64,000 bases of DNA from an uncultured Paracoccaceae bacterium (GTDB taxonomy: Bacteria > Pseudomonadota > Alphaproteobacteria > Rhodobacterales > Rhodobacteraceae): contig CANLEQ010000005.1 in NCBI GenBank assembly GCA_947489705.1, forward strand, positions 62,001 to 126,000, written 5' to 3'. Below are positions 36,587 through 41,675 of the stretch, piece after piece. A model generated the notes under the pieces. The model worked only from the letters and a program-made list of their open reading frames with translations, searched no databases and was not told where the DNA came from. Both the position numbers and the translations under genes were made by a program. Each line of letters begins with the position of its first letter. Position 1 is the stretch's first letter.

Positions 36587-37370
36587 TCGAATTCTCCTTC
36601 GGTTCGGCCATGTCGCGGTGCAGGCGCGCAAGAACCGAGTCGGGGACGACACCGCTCAGCGCGGACTGGACCTTCGTCATCAAGCCCGGCGACACGCCGG
36701 AGCAGCCCGCCTTCAGCGCCGCCCAGCCGTCGCGGGCCACCTTGGCCGGATCGGCCTTGGAATCGCTCTGGCCGACGGGGGTGTCGTCCATGTCGGCGCG
36801 GTGGAAGAATTCGGTCTCTACCGGGCCCGGCATGAGGCACGTGACGCTCACCCCCGTCTCCTTCAGCTCGTTGCGGATGCCGTAGCTCAGCGTGTCGAGA
36901 TAGGCCTTTGTGGCGTTGTAGACCGCCTGGAAGCTGCCCGGCATCTCGCCTGCGATCGAGCCGGTGATCAGGATCCGGCCCTGACCCGCATCGCGCATCG
37001 CGCGCGCGGCGCGCTGCACGACCGCGGTGGTGCCGGTGACGTTGAGGTGGATGACCTCCTCGATCCGGTCGGGCGATTGATCGAGAAACGCGTCGCCCAA
37101 ACCGCGGCCCGCATTGGCGAGCATGTAATCGACCGGCCGGTCGCCGATCGCCGCCCAGAGCGCGTCGACGCCGTGGGCGGTTGCAAGATCGGCCTGGACC
37201 GCCTCGACATTCGTTCCGTCCCGCCGCAGATCCTCCGCGGCCGCCACGATCTCCGCCTCGTTCGAGGTGACGATGAGATCGCAGCCGTCTTCGGCAGCCA
37301 GCCTTGCGAGTTCGAAACCGATACCGGTCGACGCCCCGGTAATGACGGCGAGAGCGCGGGCGGCCATCAA
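36579..37370 (-). CDS. SDR family oxidoreductase (tandem copy 2)
   Basis: [37 protein letters not shown]; similar along its length to the downstream SDR. Confidence 0.9.
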
Positions 37371-38551
37371 TTCGCCTGCGTTCCGGGCTTGAGAACGACC
37401 TTGGTCCAGTCATTCTGATTATAGCGGAAATTCTTGTATCCCTCCGCTGCCTGCTCGAGCGGCAGACGGTGCGAGATCAGGAACGTCGTGTCGAGTTCGC
37501 CGTCGCCGATCCGCCGCAGGAGGTCGTCGAGGTATCGCTGCACATGGGTCTGGCCCGACCGCACCTGGACGCCCTTTTCCATCAGCGCGCCGAGCGGGAA
37601 CTTGTCGAGCATGCCGCCATAGACGCCCGGAATGGACACGGTTCCGCCCTTGCGCACGCACATGATCGCCTCGCGCAGGGCATGGGCGCTGTCGGCGCCG
37701 ATGCCGATATTCTGCTTGATGTTGTCCATGACCGTATCGGGGGCGAAGCCGTGGCTTTCCATGCCCACCGCGTCGATCACCGAATCAGGCCCCATGCCGC
37801 CCGACATCTCGGTCAGGGCTTCGAGCACGTTGGTCTGCTTGAAATCGACGATCTCCGCGCCGAGCTTCCTGGCGAGGGCCAAGCGGTTGGGATATTCGTC
37901 GATCGCGATCACGCGTCCCGCGCCCATCGCAAGCGCCGACTGCACCGCGAATAGGCCGACGGGCCCGCATCCCCAGACGGCGACGGTATCGCCCTCCTGG
38001 ATGTTCGCGTTCTCGGCGCCTTGCCACCCCGTGGGCAGGATATCCGACAGGAAGAGCACGTCGTCGTCGTCCATCCCGTCGGGAATGACAATCGGTCCAA
38101 CATCCGAGAAGGGGACGCGGACATATTCGGCCTGACCGCCCGGATAGCCGCCCGTCAGGTGCGAATACCCGAAAAGGGAACTGACCGAATGGCCGTAGAG
38201 CGCCTCGGTCATGTCCTGCTTCTCGGCGGGATTGGTGTTGTCGCAGGCCGAATAGAGCTTGCTTTGGCAGAAAAAGCAGCTGCCGCAGGAGATTGTAAAC
38301 GGAACGACCACTCGCTGCCCCTTCTTGAGGGTGCTCTTCGGGCCGGTCTCGACCACACGGCCCATGAATTCGTGCCCCAGGATGTCGCCGGAGAGCATGC
38401 CGGGGATAACCCCGTCATAGAGGTGAAGGTCGGAGCCGCAGATCGCGGTCGAGGTGACTTCGATGATGGCATCGCGAGGATTGACGATCTCGGGATCGGG
38501 AACCGTGTCCACGCGGACGTCGTGCTTGCCGTGCCAGGTCAATGCGCGCAT
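37367..38551 (-). CDS. Zinc-dependent alcohol dehydrogenase (formaldehyde-dehydrogenase-like)
   Basis: 394 aa; [22 protein letters not shown]...[59 protein letters not shown]. Confidence 0.93.
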
Positions 38552-38562
38552 GTCGTATCCTT

Positions 38563-39225
38563 TCAGGCCGCCGAGGGGCGGTTTGCGTTTGTGGCGATCT
38601 CGCCGGTTTCCAGCAGCATCTTCAGACGCTTGAGGTCGCGCCGCGCCTGAAGGTGCGGCTCGGCCTGGAGCGATTTGGCCACGAACCGGCCGAGTTCGCC
38701 TCCGGGCGAGAGGTATTCCAGATCGAGCACGACTTCGGTGCCGCGCCCCGCCGGTGCGTCGCGGAGGCTGACGCTGCCGCGATGCTCGATGTCCGATGCC
38801 TCCGTCGTCTCCCAGGCGATTCGCTCTCCGTCGCGGTCCTCGGTGATCCTGGTAACGAGGGATACGTGGCGCCCGGCGGGAGCGGCGATGGTCCACCGCG
38901 TGAGATCCCCGTCCATAGCGACGTCATGCACGCTCTCCATGACCTTCGAGAGGTTCGAGAAGTCGCGCCAGAAGGCATAGATCTCGGATCGGGGGCGATC
39001 GATGGTGATGGTCCGCCCGGTTACGGTCCGAGGTCCGCTCCGGCCGCGCAGGGCCCGGGCGGGGGCCGTGTCGGGCGGGCGGTGGGCAACACGATTTCGG
39101 CCGCTCTGCTGGTAGAGACCATAGCCGACCGCGCCGAGGAGGAGGCCGAGCCCTCCTGCGAGCCAAAGGGTGCTTGGGTCGAAATCGCGGGACCTGCGCC
39201 GCGTCGGGAGATAATCTCGATACAT
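38563..39225 (-). CDS. SRPBCC (polyketide cyclase/dehydrase-like) protein with N-terminal TM
   Basis: [17 protein letters not shown] then [32 protein letters not shown]...[12 protein letters not shown]-type C-terminus. Confidence 0.82.
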
Positions 39226-39288: not shown

Positions 39289-39314
39289 AAGCGACGAGCG
39301 CTGCCGCCGGTTCC
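39289..39314 (-). promoter_or_regulatory. Putative ECF-sigma-type promoter GGAAC-N17-GCTT upstream of the SRPBCC-ADH-SDR-SDR operon
   Basis: Complement gives ggaac cggcggcagcgctcgtc gctt; 5' of the SRPBCC start (39225). Confidence 0.3.
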
Positions 39315-39375
39315 TTGGAAGCCGCGGGCGTTTGCAGAACGGAACGCGCATGTTGATGGGAGCCGAACATGCGAA

Positions 39376-39401
39376 CGCCCGCCCCGAAGACGGGGCGGGC
39401 G
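39376..39401 (-). terminator. Terminator-like hairpin downstream of the DUF3618 gene
   Basis: cgcccgcccc-gaagac-ggggcgggcg, 10-bp perfect stem, ~28 nt past the stop. Confidence 0.6.
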
Positions 39402-39428
39402 CCGAGACTGTCGCGAAGGCGTGTTCCC

Positions 39429-40478
39429 CTAGCTGCGGGACGGACCCAGATCTTCCTTGCGGGCTTCGTCGCGCGCCGCGTCGGCAACGCGCTTGACGGC
39501 GCCTTCGGTGCGATCCACGGCAGCGTCAGCGGCGGTGCCGCTGCCCTGCGTATCGCTGTCGGCCCGGTCCTTCATCTGACGCGCAGTGGCATCGGCCTCG
39601 TCGCGGGCCTCTTCGCCGACATGCCGGGCTTCGTCCAGCGCGGCTCCCGCGACACGTTCGACCTTGGCCCGTTCCTCATGGAAGATGCGTTCGGCTTCGT
39701 CGTAGAAATGATCGCTTTCCTCGCCGAAATAATCATCTTCGTAGCGGGTGCGAGGCAGTCCGCCCGCAATCGCCGCGCCGACCGCGAAGGCAAGCGCGCC
39801 CGCGACGAGAGGATGCTCTTCGAAGAAGTCCACCGCCCTGTCCGCGCCCTGGCTCATCCCGCGGCTCGCCTGCTCGCTTGCCGCGATGGCGCGCTCTCGG
39901 GCCGCGATGATCCGCTCGCGTGCATCGGCGCTCATCCGCTCCGTTCCTTCGGAGAGGCGACGCGACATTTCGGACGAGCGATGGCGGACCCTGCCGACGG
40001 CGTCCGACGCATTCGCGCCGGCCATATGTCTGCGGGCGCGCATCTTCTGTCCCATCGAGGGGCCGTGATCCGCATCGCTGATCCAGTTCGGACCGTCGCC
40101 CTCGGGAACGGGGCCGCGGGGCCCGATGGAGGCATCGCGATCCGCCCCGTAGGCGGTCTTTCGCGTGCCGCCCATCGTCAAGTCGTCGTCGCCGCTGCGC
40201 CGTGCCGTCCGCTCGATACGGTCGGCGCTCGGCCCGTGGCCGAAGATCAGCCAGCCGAGGCCGATGCCGGTGACGGCAAGGGCCAGCGGATTCTCGCGGG
40301 CGGACAGGGAAACAGACCGGCCCCATTCGCCACCGTGACCGCGGACGGTGTCGGTGACGCTTCGGAAGATACTGTCGGGCGAGAAGGTATCCTGAAGGGC
40401 GACGATCGTCTCGTGAAGGTTCTCGCGGTCGCGCTTGAGCTCCGCTTCGATCTCTTCTGGGGTTTGATTGTTGCTCAT
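39429..40478 (-). CDS. DUF3618-like protein with two glycine-rich membrane segments
   Basis: 349 aa; EEIEAELKRDRENLHETIVALQDTFSP N-terminus; ARENPLALAVTGIGLGWLIFG and FEEHPLVAGALAFAVGAAIAGG. Confidence 0.75.
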   Translation of the reverse strand: MSNNQTPEEIEAELKRDRENLHETIVALQDTFSPDSIFRSVTDTVRGHGGEWGRSVSLSARENPLALAVTGIGLGWLIFGHGPSADRIERTARRSGDDDLTMGGTRKTAYGADRDASIGPRGPVPEGDGPNWISDADHGPSMGQKMRARRHMAGANASDAVGRVRHRSSEMSRRLSEGTERMSADARERIIAARERAIAASEQASRGMSQGADRAVDFFEEHPLVAGALAFAVGAAIAGGLPRTRYEDDYFGEESDHFYDEAERIFHEERAKVERVAGAALDEARHVGEEARDEADATARQMKDRADSDTQGSGTAADAAVDRTEGAVKRVADAARDEARKEDLGPSRS

Positions 40479-40479
40479 G

Positions 40480-40899
40480 TCAAAGCGCTTTCTTTACGGC
40501 TTGGCCGTCGCGTTCCAGGTTCTCTGCGGTTCGCGTCGGCGCGAGCGAGGTGAGTTTGAGGTCGTTTACGCCCTTCTTGGCGAGGCCCGCGGCGATCACC
40601 GCGAGCACGACGCCGACGAGGAGCGCCGCCCATCCGGCATCGAGGCCGAGTTCGGCAATCGCCACGACGAGCGCGCTTGCAAGCACGTTCAACGCGACGA
40701 GCAGGATCACAACGCCCGCGACGATCATGCCGATGGCCGCTCCGGCATGTTTCACGTTGCGGTCCATCTCGGCGCGAAAGAGGTTAATCTCCCCGCGCAG
40801 AAGCGCGATGACGTGTTGCACGGCATCGCCCAGCAAAGTGCCGCTGTCGCGGATCTGCCGGCGGGCGCTGTCGGGTTTGGAGGTTTCGGTCGTCGACAT
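40480..40899 (-). CDS. Phage-holin-family (YqjE/DUF1469-like) membrane protein
   Basis: 139 aa; LLGDAVQHVIALLRGEINLFRAEMDRNVKHAGAAIGMIVAGVVILLVALNVLASALVVAIAELGLDAGWAALLVGVVLAVIA. Confidence 0.75.
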   Translation of the reverse strand: MSTTETSKPDSARRQIRDSGTLLGDAVQHVIALLRGEINLFRAEMDRNVKHAGAAIGMIVAGVVILLVALNVLASALVVAIAELGLDAGWAALLVGVVLAVIAAGLAKKGVNDLKLTSLAPTRTAENLERDGQAVKKAL

Positions 40900-41534
40900 C
40901 AGGTTTCTCCCGGCGTCTTGGTGGTGGTTGAAGGCGTCGCGGCGGTACCGGGCGTCCCGGGCGTGACCGGCGCGGTTGACGCGCTCGGGACGGATCCGAC
41001 GGGTCGGGCCGGCGTCGCAGGAGGCGGCGTGCCTTGACGCAGATCCGAGGGATCGGTCCGGGAAGTGCCGGATGCGCCGATCGAGCCGGTTCTGTCGCTC
41101 TGCCGCGGCGTCGCGGCGGAGGCTTTGGCGAAACGGCTTACCGCGAAGCCAGCAAGTGCCGCACCGCCCAGGAATGCGAGCGGATTGCGACGGGCGAACG
41201 AACTGGCATCGGTCGCCAGCTCTCCCAGGTCGCGATTCTTGATCGCCTCGGAGGCATCCGCGAGGGACGCGGCGATCTGGCCGAAGGACTTTTCCTGCGG
41301 CGACCCGCTGCGCATGTCGTCCGCAGCCTTGCGCAAGGCATCCGCAATACCGGACATTTCCTTGGCTACGCCGCTCTTGGCGCGGTCCGCTTGTGAATAT
41401 GCCTCCTGCTGGGCGCGGTGGCTCAGGTCGTCGGCGGTCTCATAGGCATCATCGCGAAGACGTTCGGCGGCGCGCTTCGCATCGGCGCCGGCCTCCCGGT
41501 CCACACGACGATCGTCGGGATCGGTGTCGTTCAT
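40899..41534 (-). CDS. YqjD/ElaB (DUF883)-like membrane-anchored protein
   Basis: 211 aa; acidic/helical N-terminus, ARRNPLAFLGGAALAGFAVSRFAKAS anchor, Pro/Thr-rich tail; RBS gagga. Confidence 0.6.
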   Translation of the reverse strand: MNDTDPDDRRVDREAGADAKRAAERLRDDAYETADDLSHRAQQEAYSQADRAKSGVAKEMSGIADALRKAADDMRSGSPQEKSFGQIAASLADASEAIKNRDLGELATDASSFARRNPLAFLGGAALAGFAVSRFAKASAATPRQSDRTGSIGASGTSRTDPSDLRQGTPPPATPARPVGSVPSASTAPVTPGTPGTAATPSTTTKTPGET

Positions 41535-41548
41535 AATGTTGTCCTCAA

Positions 41549-41617
41549 TCAGGCGATGAATGTTATGACGGCGAGAACGATGGCCACTAAACCAACGAGA
41601 TAGATTAGGCTGTTCAT
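41549..41617 (-). CDS. Small hydrophobic microprotein, 22 aa (MNSLIYLVGLVAIVLAVITFIA)
   Basis: Read on the minus strand; AGGAA 8 nt upstream of ATG; below the ORF-track cut-off; 14 nt upstream of the YqjD-like gene. Confidence 0.55.
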   Translation of the reverse strand: MNSLIYLVGLVAIVLAVITFIA

Positions 41618-41650: not shown

Positions 41651-41675
41651 AAGCCTCAACTGCGCGTGAGGTTCC
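41651..41675 (-). promoter_or_regulatory. Putative ECF-sigma-type promoter GGAAC-N16-GCTT upstream of the microprotein/YqjD-like operon
   Basis: Complement gives ggaac ctcacgcgcagttgag gctt. Confidence 0.3.

Follow-up and report, generated by a model that had tools for sequence, protein, structure and literature searches.

What do a 22-codon hydrophobic reading frame and the three small genes behind it do for an alphaproteobacterium, and how are they related to the yqjD and yqjE genes of E. coli? The locus lies in a 64,000-nucleotide stretch of DNA from an uncultured Paracoccaceae bacterium, here called the window. A preliminary description, made from the sequence alone, had reported three minus-strand genes that abut or overlap by about 1 nt, with a 22-aa hydrophobic ORF ahead of them and a hairpin behind. 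The reading frames were all found in place, and so were the three membrane-anchor segments that it quoted. The features are as follows.

41651-41675, minus strand: candidate sigma-EcfG promoter, GGAAC-N16-GCTT, agreeing with the consensus at 7 of 8 scored positions, 58 nt upstream of the microprotein ATG
41549-41617, minus strand: microprotein MNSLIYLVGLVAIVLAVITFIA, 22 aa, single-span
40899-41534, minus strand: gene A, 211 aa, no Pfam family
40480-40899, minus strand: gene B, 139 aa, Phage_holin_3_6 (PF07332), the family of E. coli YqjE
39429-40478, minus strand: gene C, 349 aa, DUF3618 (PF12277) with two conserved anchors (residues 61-82 and 216-242)
39375-39402, minus strand: perfect GC-rich hairpin 3' of gene C, no U tract
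38563-39225, minus strand: downstream SRPBCC-family gene, a single hydrophobic span at the N-terminus, outside the conserved unit

The microprotein gene (microORF) and genes A, B and C form a single minus-strand array with joints of 1 nt. Genes A and B have 1 nt in common (TGATG), and B and C abut without overlap, 1 nt lying between them (TGACATG); from the microORF stop to the start of gene A there are 14 nt. The hairpin after gene C (about 39402-39375) is real, with z = -2.75 against shuffled sequences, but it is no textbook terminator, because a U run is absent after it. The SRPBCC gene was considered as a member of the module and dropped, as no homologue of it is present at other A-B-C loci.

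Genes B and C belong to the families that had been proposed for them. Gene B, described as holin-like and akin to YqjE, matches PF07332 at 1.1e-25 (90.3 bits, cut-off 28.4), and E. coli YqjE matches the same family at 3.5e-21. Their kinship was judged by this common family, a comparison between a profile and the single YqjE sequence being set aside as uninformative. Gene C, described as a DUF3618 protein with two anchors on one chain, matches PF12277 at 5.1e-7 (30.3 bits, cut-off 24.9), and both anchors are conserved class-wide, with P64, W76, P223, G227 and G234 invariant among 27 diverse sequences. The anchors of A and C are only mildly hydrophobic, scoring 1.4-1.9 by Kyte-Doolittle, so that insertion of these proteins into the membrane, as opposed to peripheral binding, is uncertain. 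In AlphaFold models of low confidence (pTM 0.31 for A and 0.26 for C), the helix is broken at the proline ahead of each anchor. NCBIfam gave no real match for any of five proteins, and PHROGs none for A, B or C. PADLOC returned two marginal matches only, both to gene B (E near 0.008-0.01), which were taken as chance.

Gene A had been called YqjD-like, that is, a DUF883 protein, and here the preliminary description was right only in part. Its product has zero Pfam matches, neither PF05957 nor PF19029 appearing even at E<=1. PF05957 was likewise absent from 55 gene A relatives (E<=0.01) and from the whole genome of the window, and on these grounds membership of gene A in DUF883 was ruled out. 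The protein is laid out as acidic amphipathic helices (residues 1-112), a glycine-zipper anchor (113-140) and a disordered tail rich in P, T and S. A profile of the 55 relatives aligned with 24 DUF883 proteins over 29 anchor columns only (probability 91%). Sphingomonad-type relatives, so typed by sequence, were joined to gene A over 121 columns (probability 99%), and matched DUF883_C (PF19029) at about 2e-4, under the gathering score. The anchors of gene A and of DUF883 may have a common origin; the N-terminal domain that carries the function in DUF883 proteins is different or absent in gene A. Unlike the anchor of the DUF883/YqjD-ElaB-YgaM proteins, which usually end in RR, that of gene A is not at the extreme C-terminus: 71 residues follow it (family median, 37). 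The N-terminal acidic helix has a net charge of -8, and DUF883 N-termini are likewise mildly acidic. Twelve of the 55 relatives weakly resemble amphipathic apolipoprotein helices, a likeness that we treated as one of composition. When the gene A profile was run against solved structures, it returned only helical bundles and apolipoprotein chains (best 7e-7, a designed coiled coil), and this too was read as compositional.

Scanning GTDB contigs with gene A as sole query gave 170 relatives. Among the best 80 of these, A, B and C occurred in the same order and on one strand at 80 of 80 loci, a conserved synteny and one well beyond chance. The hosts include Rhodobacterales, Rhizobiales, Devosia, Bradyrhizobium, Acetobacterales and others. 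The preliminary description had assigned the unit to Rhodobacterales, which is correct for the linkage of the microprotein to gene A at the loci examined, but not for A-B-C, which is spread over Alphaproteobacteria. Gene A was detected in 21 of 289 sampled alphaproteobacterial genomes and DUF3618 in 12 of 241, all 12 falling among the 21 with gene A; sampling was by similarity to A1, and very divergent forms are missed by it. As most sampled genomes are without the module, it is dispensable in the class.

Further clusters were noticed in this survey. The window's genome carries a full paralogous A-B-C cluster (L007:6044-8203, on G000:C11), whose microORF (about G000:C11:55971-56004) has an intact frame with ATA at the start-codon position, possibly a rare start or a sign of decay. 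A third, partial cluster in the same genome (L008:37-1171, on G000:C59) consists of B and a short C only, and lies near a resolvase-like ORF and one of 961 aa that looks like a Tn3-family transposase. One A-B-C cluster was found in a MAG labelled Chloroflexi (L058), probably through contamination or transfer. On Rhodobacterales plasmids (L004, L005) the cluster adjoins a divergent BrkB/YihY gene, as in the Actinoplanes DUF3618-HolinX cluster.

The microprotein does lead the gene set, as had been proposed. In 25 of the 35 Rhodobacterales loci that could be assessed, a hydrophobic ORF stands immediately 5' of gene A; in this count, L012 and L016 are truncated by contig ends. Operon-linked copies (25 distinct sequences) have 22 codons in every case, and their pN/pS is 0.35, whereas the two alternative frames on that strand give 0.83 and 2.07; the 15 sequences of the MHNVFYL subgroup have a value of 0.14. 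The family core reads (I/F)Y(L/I)(V/I)G(L/V)(V/I)VV. A degenerate pattern of this core was found in 20 of 289 alphaproteobacterial genomes, and the reversed pattern had no match among the matches listed in the same scan. Core-pattern matches were mostly ORFs of 22-24 aa, many with an SF(F/L)GLR-type or similar end. The constant length, the low pN/pS and the relatives of 22-24 aa elsewhere in the class argue that the microORF is a real protein-coding gene under purifying selection. At L118 and L187, from another family, the microprotein gene is followed immediately by a PF07332 gene (1.2e-28) and a DUF3618 gene (PF12277, 2.9e-14), without gene A. The genome G401 is of the window's genus, and at its locus L139 the microprotein and promoter have letters in common with the Palleronia rufa locus L036, which makes Palleronia the probable source of the window. 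A literature search returned nothing on the microprotein sequence or on 'nutrient deprivation-induced protein', and the 22-aa microprotein is an overlooked family, unlisted in databases.

Other settings of the microprotein were also seen. At eight loci from several families (L112, L115, L117, L120, L124, L125, L131 and L132), a 24-aa copy directly precedes the gene of a membrane protein of about 270-330 aa that starts with a ...DW(G/A)...AGA... segment. Three such membrane proteins were compared with Pfam; two had no match and one matched DUF6069 weakly, below cut-off. A third copy in the window's genome, MNRIIYIVGLVVIVVAIVSFVL, is free-standing, away from any A-B-C cluster (L126, G000:C3:130403-130436, minus strand).

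A stress role had been suggested for the locus, and the sequences upstream of the family point the same way. The motif GGAAC-N16/17-NGTT, which has the form of published sigma-EcfG sites (PMC6599016), is present upstream of gene A at 70 of 102 distinct loci, as compared with 1.2 in shuffled sequences and 11 on the reverse strand. It occurs in 52 of 78 gene A upstreams versus 10 of 203 upstreams of other genes, with the remaining large ORFs at these loci as background (p=6e-27; related loci were counted as separate, so that p-values overstate independence). A separate sample from the window's family had it in 15 of 18 cases. Free-standing microprotein genes have it as well (12 of 23, versus 0.1 expected). 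Exact sites mostly lie 71-95 nt before the start at operon loci; for most free-standing microprotein genes the distance to the conserved core is 49-93 nt. The window itself offers only GGAAC-N16-GCTT as its best site: its placement is as in relatives, but its -10 element is weak against the consensus GGAAC-N16/17-CGTT and does not fully fit. The exact site is also missing in many microprotein-bearing Rhodobacterales loci.

The window's genome encodes NepR (PF18557, 2.7e-14), and the ORFs that flank it (L199) were read as EcfG and PhyR from their sequences, not by HMM. Because the operon stands behind sigma-EcfG promoters, as judged by family-wide enrichment, micro-A-B-C is very probably a membrane module of the general stress response. 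On the promoter sequences, the A-B-C operon is new as a sigma-EcfG-linked unit. This link was absent from the preliminary description, and our literature search found nothing that joins EcfG with 'phage holin family protein'. The switch of the alphaproteobacterial general stress response is well known, and many of its targets are without a function; in S. meliloti, 150 of 202 rpoE2-dependent genes had no predicted function (PMC3616915). The present analysis adds to these targets one conserved unit and, with its promoter signature, a family of microproteins that had been overlooked, both directly testable.

Among known systems, E. coli yqjCDEK also encodes small inner-membrane proteins in one operon under a general-stress sigma factor, with an anchored helix protein adjoining a PF07332 protein (PMC10746276). 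It differs in that its YqjD matches DUF883 and DUF883_C in a Pfam search, whereas gene A is without DUF883 and has a long tail beyond the anchor. The third gene here is a two-anchor DUF3618 gene, versus YqjK (PF13997) in E. coli, and the leading gene is the microprotein, versus YqjC. Control would be by sigma-EcfG here, and yqjD has a sigma-S promoter (PMC10746276). By analogy, micro-A-B-C resembles the sigma-S-driven yqjDEK in layout and regulation, not by family as far as gene A is concerned. P. aeruginosa PA3040-PA3042, likewise a stress operon of three genes, encodes a YqjE-like protein and a helix protein with an anchor, and is switched on in stationary phase and upon envelope stress (PMC11302039); but PA3040 contains DUF883, no domain is recognised in PA3042, and no microprotein is reported there. 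In Actinoplanes (ACSP50_3381-3383), a DUF3618 gene adjoins a Holin-X gene, and the DUF3618-HolinX-BrkB genes rise upon sigma-H expression (PMC11205660); a BrkB/YihY gene is present there, and gene A and the microprotein are not described. These comparisons suggest a recurrent layout, an anchored helix protein with a holin-III protein under the stress sigma factor, in alphaproteobacteria as well as gammaproteobacteria. Actinobacteria have a related pair, DUF3618 and holin-III, and the protein families used differ in part between the groups. YohP and other small membrane proteins that E. coli makes under stress are, like the microprotein, under 30 aa, and are linked there to starvation and stationary phase (PMC12719787). 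The alphaproteobacterial microprotein has its own core and sits in operons, and the likeness is one of size and stress context.

From what the sequences give directly, namely operon layout, conservation, coding of the microprotein and promoter enrichment, we infer a model for membrane insertion, assembly and physiological effect. We consider it reasonably probable that micro-A-B-C is a sigma-EcfG-controlled operon making a stress-induced scaffold at the inner membrane. The four genes would be transcribed as one sigma-EcfG operon of the general stress response, and all products would go to the inner membrane or bind membrane. The gene B product would be a holin-superfamily-III hairpin protein in the inner membrane; A and C would be long acidic amphipathic helices tied to the membrane by short glycine-zipper anchors that start with a proline. 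Self- and co-assembly of these products would most likely give a scaffold that covers the inner membrane and makes it stiffer, so that fewer ions leak when cells are not growing. Such an operon is likely to be part of membrane protection at growth stop. The role would resemble the one proposed for E. coli YohP, for which raised cardiolipin, lower fluidity and lower membrane potential were reported (PMC12719787).

Other readings of the locus were weighed against this scaffold. The preliminary description had linked it to ribosomes: gene A, like YqjD and ElaB, would keep 70S/100S ribosomes tethered at the membrane during stationary phase, with B and C helping. The shared layout, in which gene A adjoins a YqjE-family gene, the distantly related anchor and a promoter logic like that of yqjD speak for it. 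However, it is the N-terminal part of YqjD that associates with the 30S subunit (PMC10746276); in gene A this part is replaced by the unrelated acidic helix, and PF05957 is missing from A and from the genome. As the 30S-holding half of YqjD has no recognisable counterpart in gene A, the ribosome link is unsupported, and we consider this reading quite unlikely. The products could instead form a complex that acts on the cell envelope or on biofilm, tuning adhesion and surface polysaccharide and not the physics of the membrane, as is reported for PA3040-3042, which reduces biofilm only if the whole operon is overexpressed (PMC11302039). Those effects were strain-dependent and the third gene there is unlike gene C, and such a role is unlikely.

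A true permeabilising holin, with A and C as antiholin-like regulators in a lysis or secretion cassette, is suggested by the name of the family of gene B, holin superfamily III (PF07332). YqjE is toxic when overexpressed (PMC11302039, PMC10746276), and overexpression of YqjD/YqjE arrests growth (PMC10746276), but that of PA3040 and PA3041 leaves growth uninhibited (PMC11302039). The absence of PHROGs matches, the class-wide conservation with stress promoters, and the annotated loci, in which no lysin is seen adjoining the cluster, make this reading most improbable. Finally, translation of the microORF might regulate gene A in cis, the peptide itself being inactive. Its position just 5' of A (14 nt), and its absence from that place in Rhizobiales loci, would fit a leader peptide. 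Its amino acids, though, are conserved over the full length with synonymous change (pN/pS as above, down to 0.14 in one subgroup), and the related 22-24-aa genes of other families stand alone or precede other membrane-protein genes, with sigma-EcfG sites of their own. A leader peptide is very unlikely on this evidence. Possibly, though we would put it somewhat short of an even chance, the microprotein belongs to a class-wide single-span family of 22-24 aa directly under sigma-EcfG, acting as a general-stress effector at the inner membrane and serving in Rhodobacterales as the lead gene of the holin_3_6/DUF3618 scaffold operon.

Downstream of the array, the SRPBCC gene (38563-39225, minus strand) has its own sigma-EcfG-like site, GGAAC-N17-GCTT, at 39289-39314 on the minus strand. 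A zinc alcohol dehydrogenase gene (37367-38527) comes next after it.
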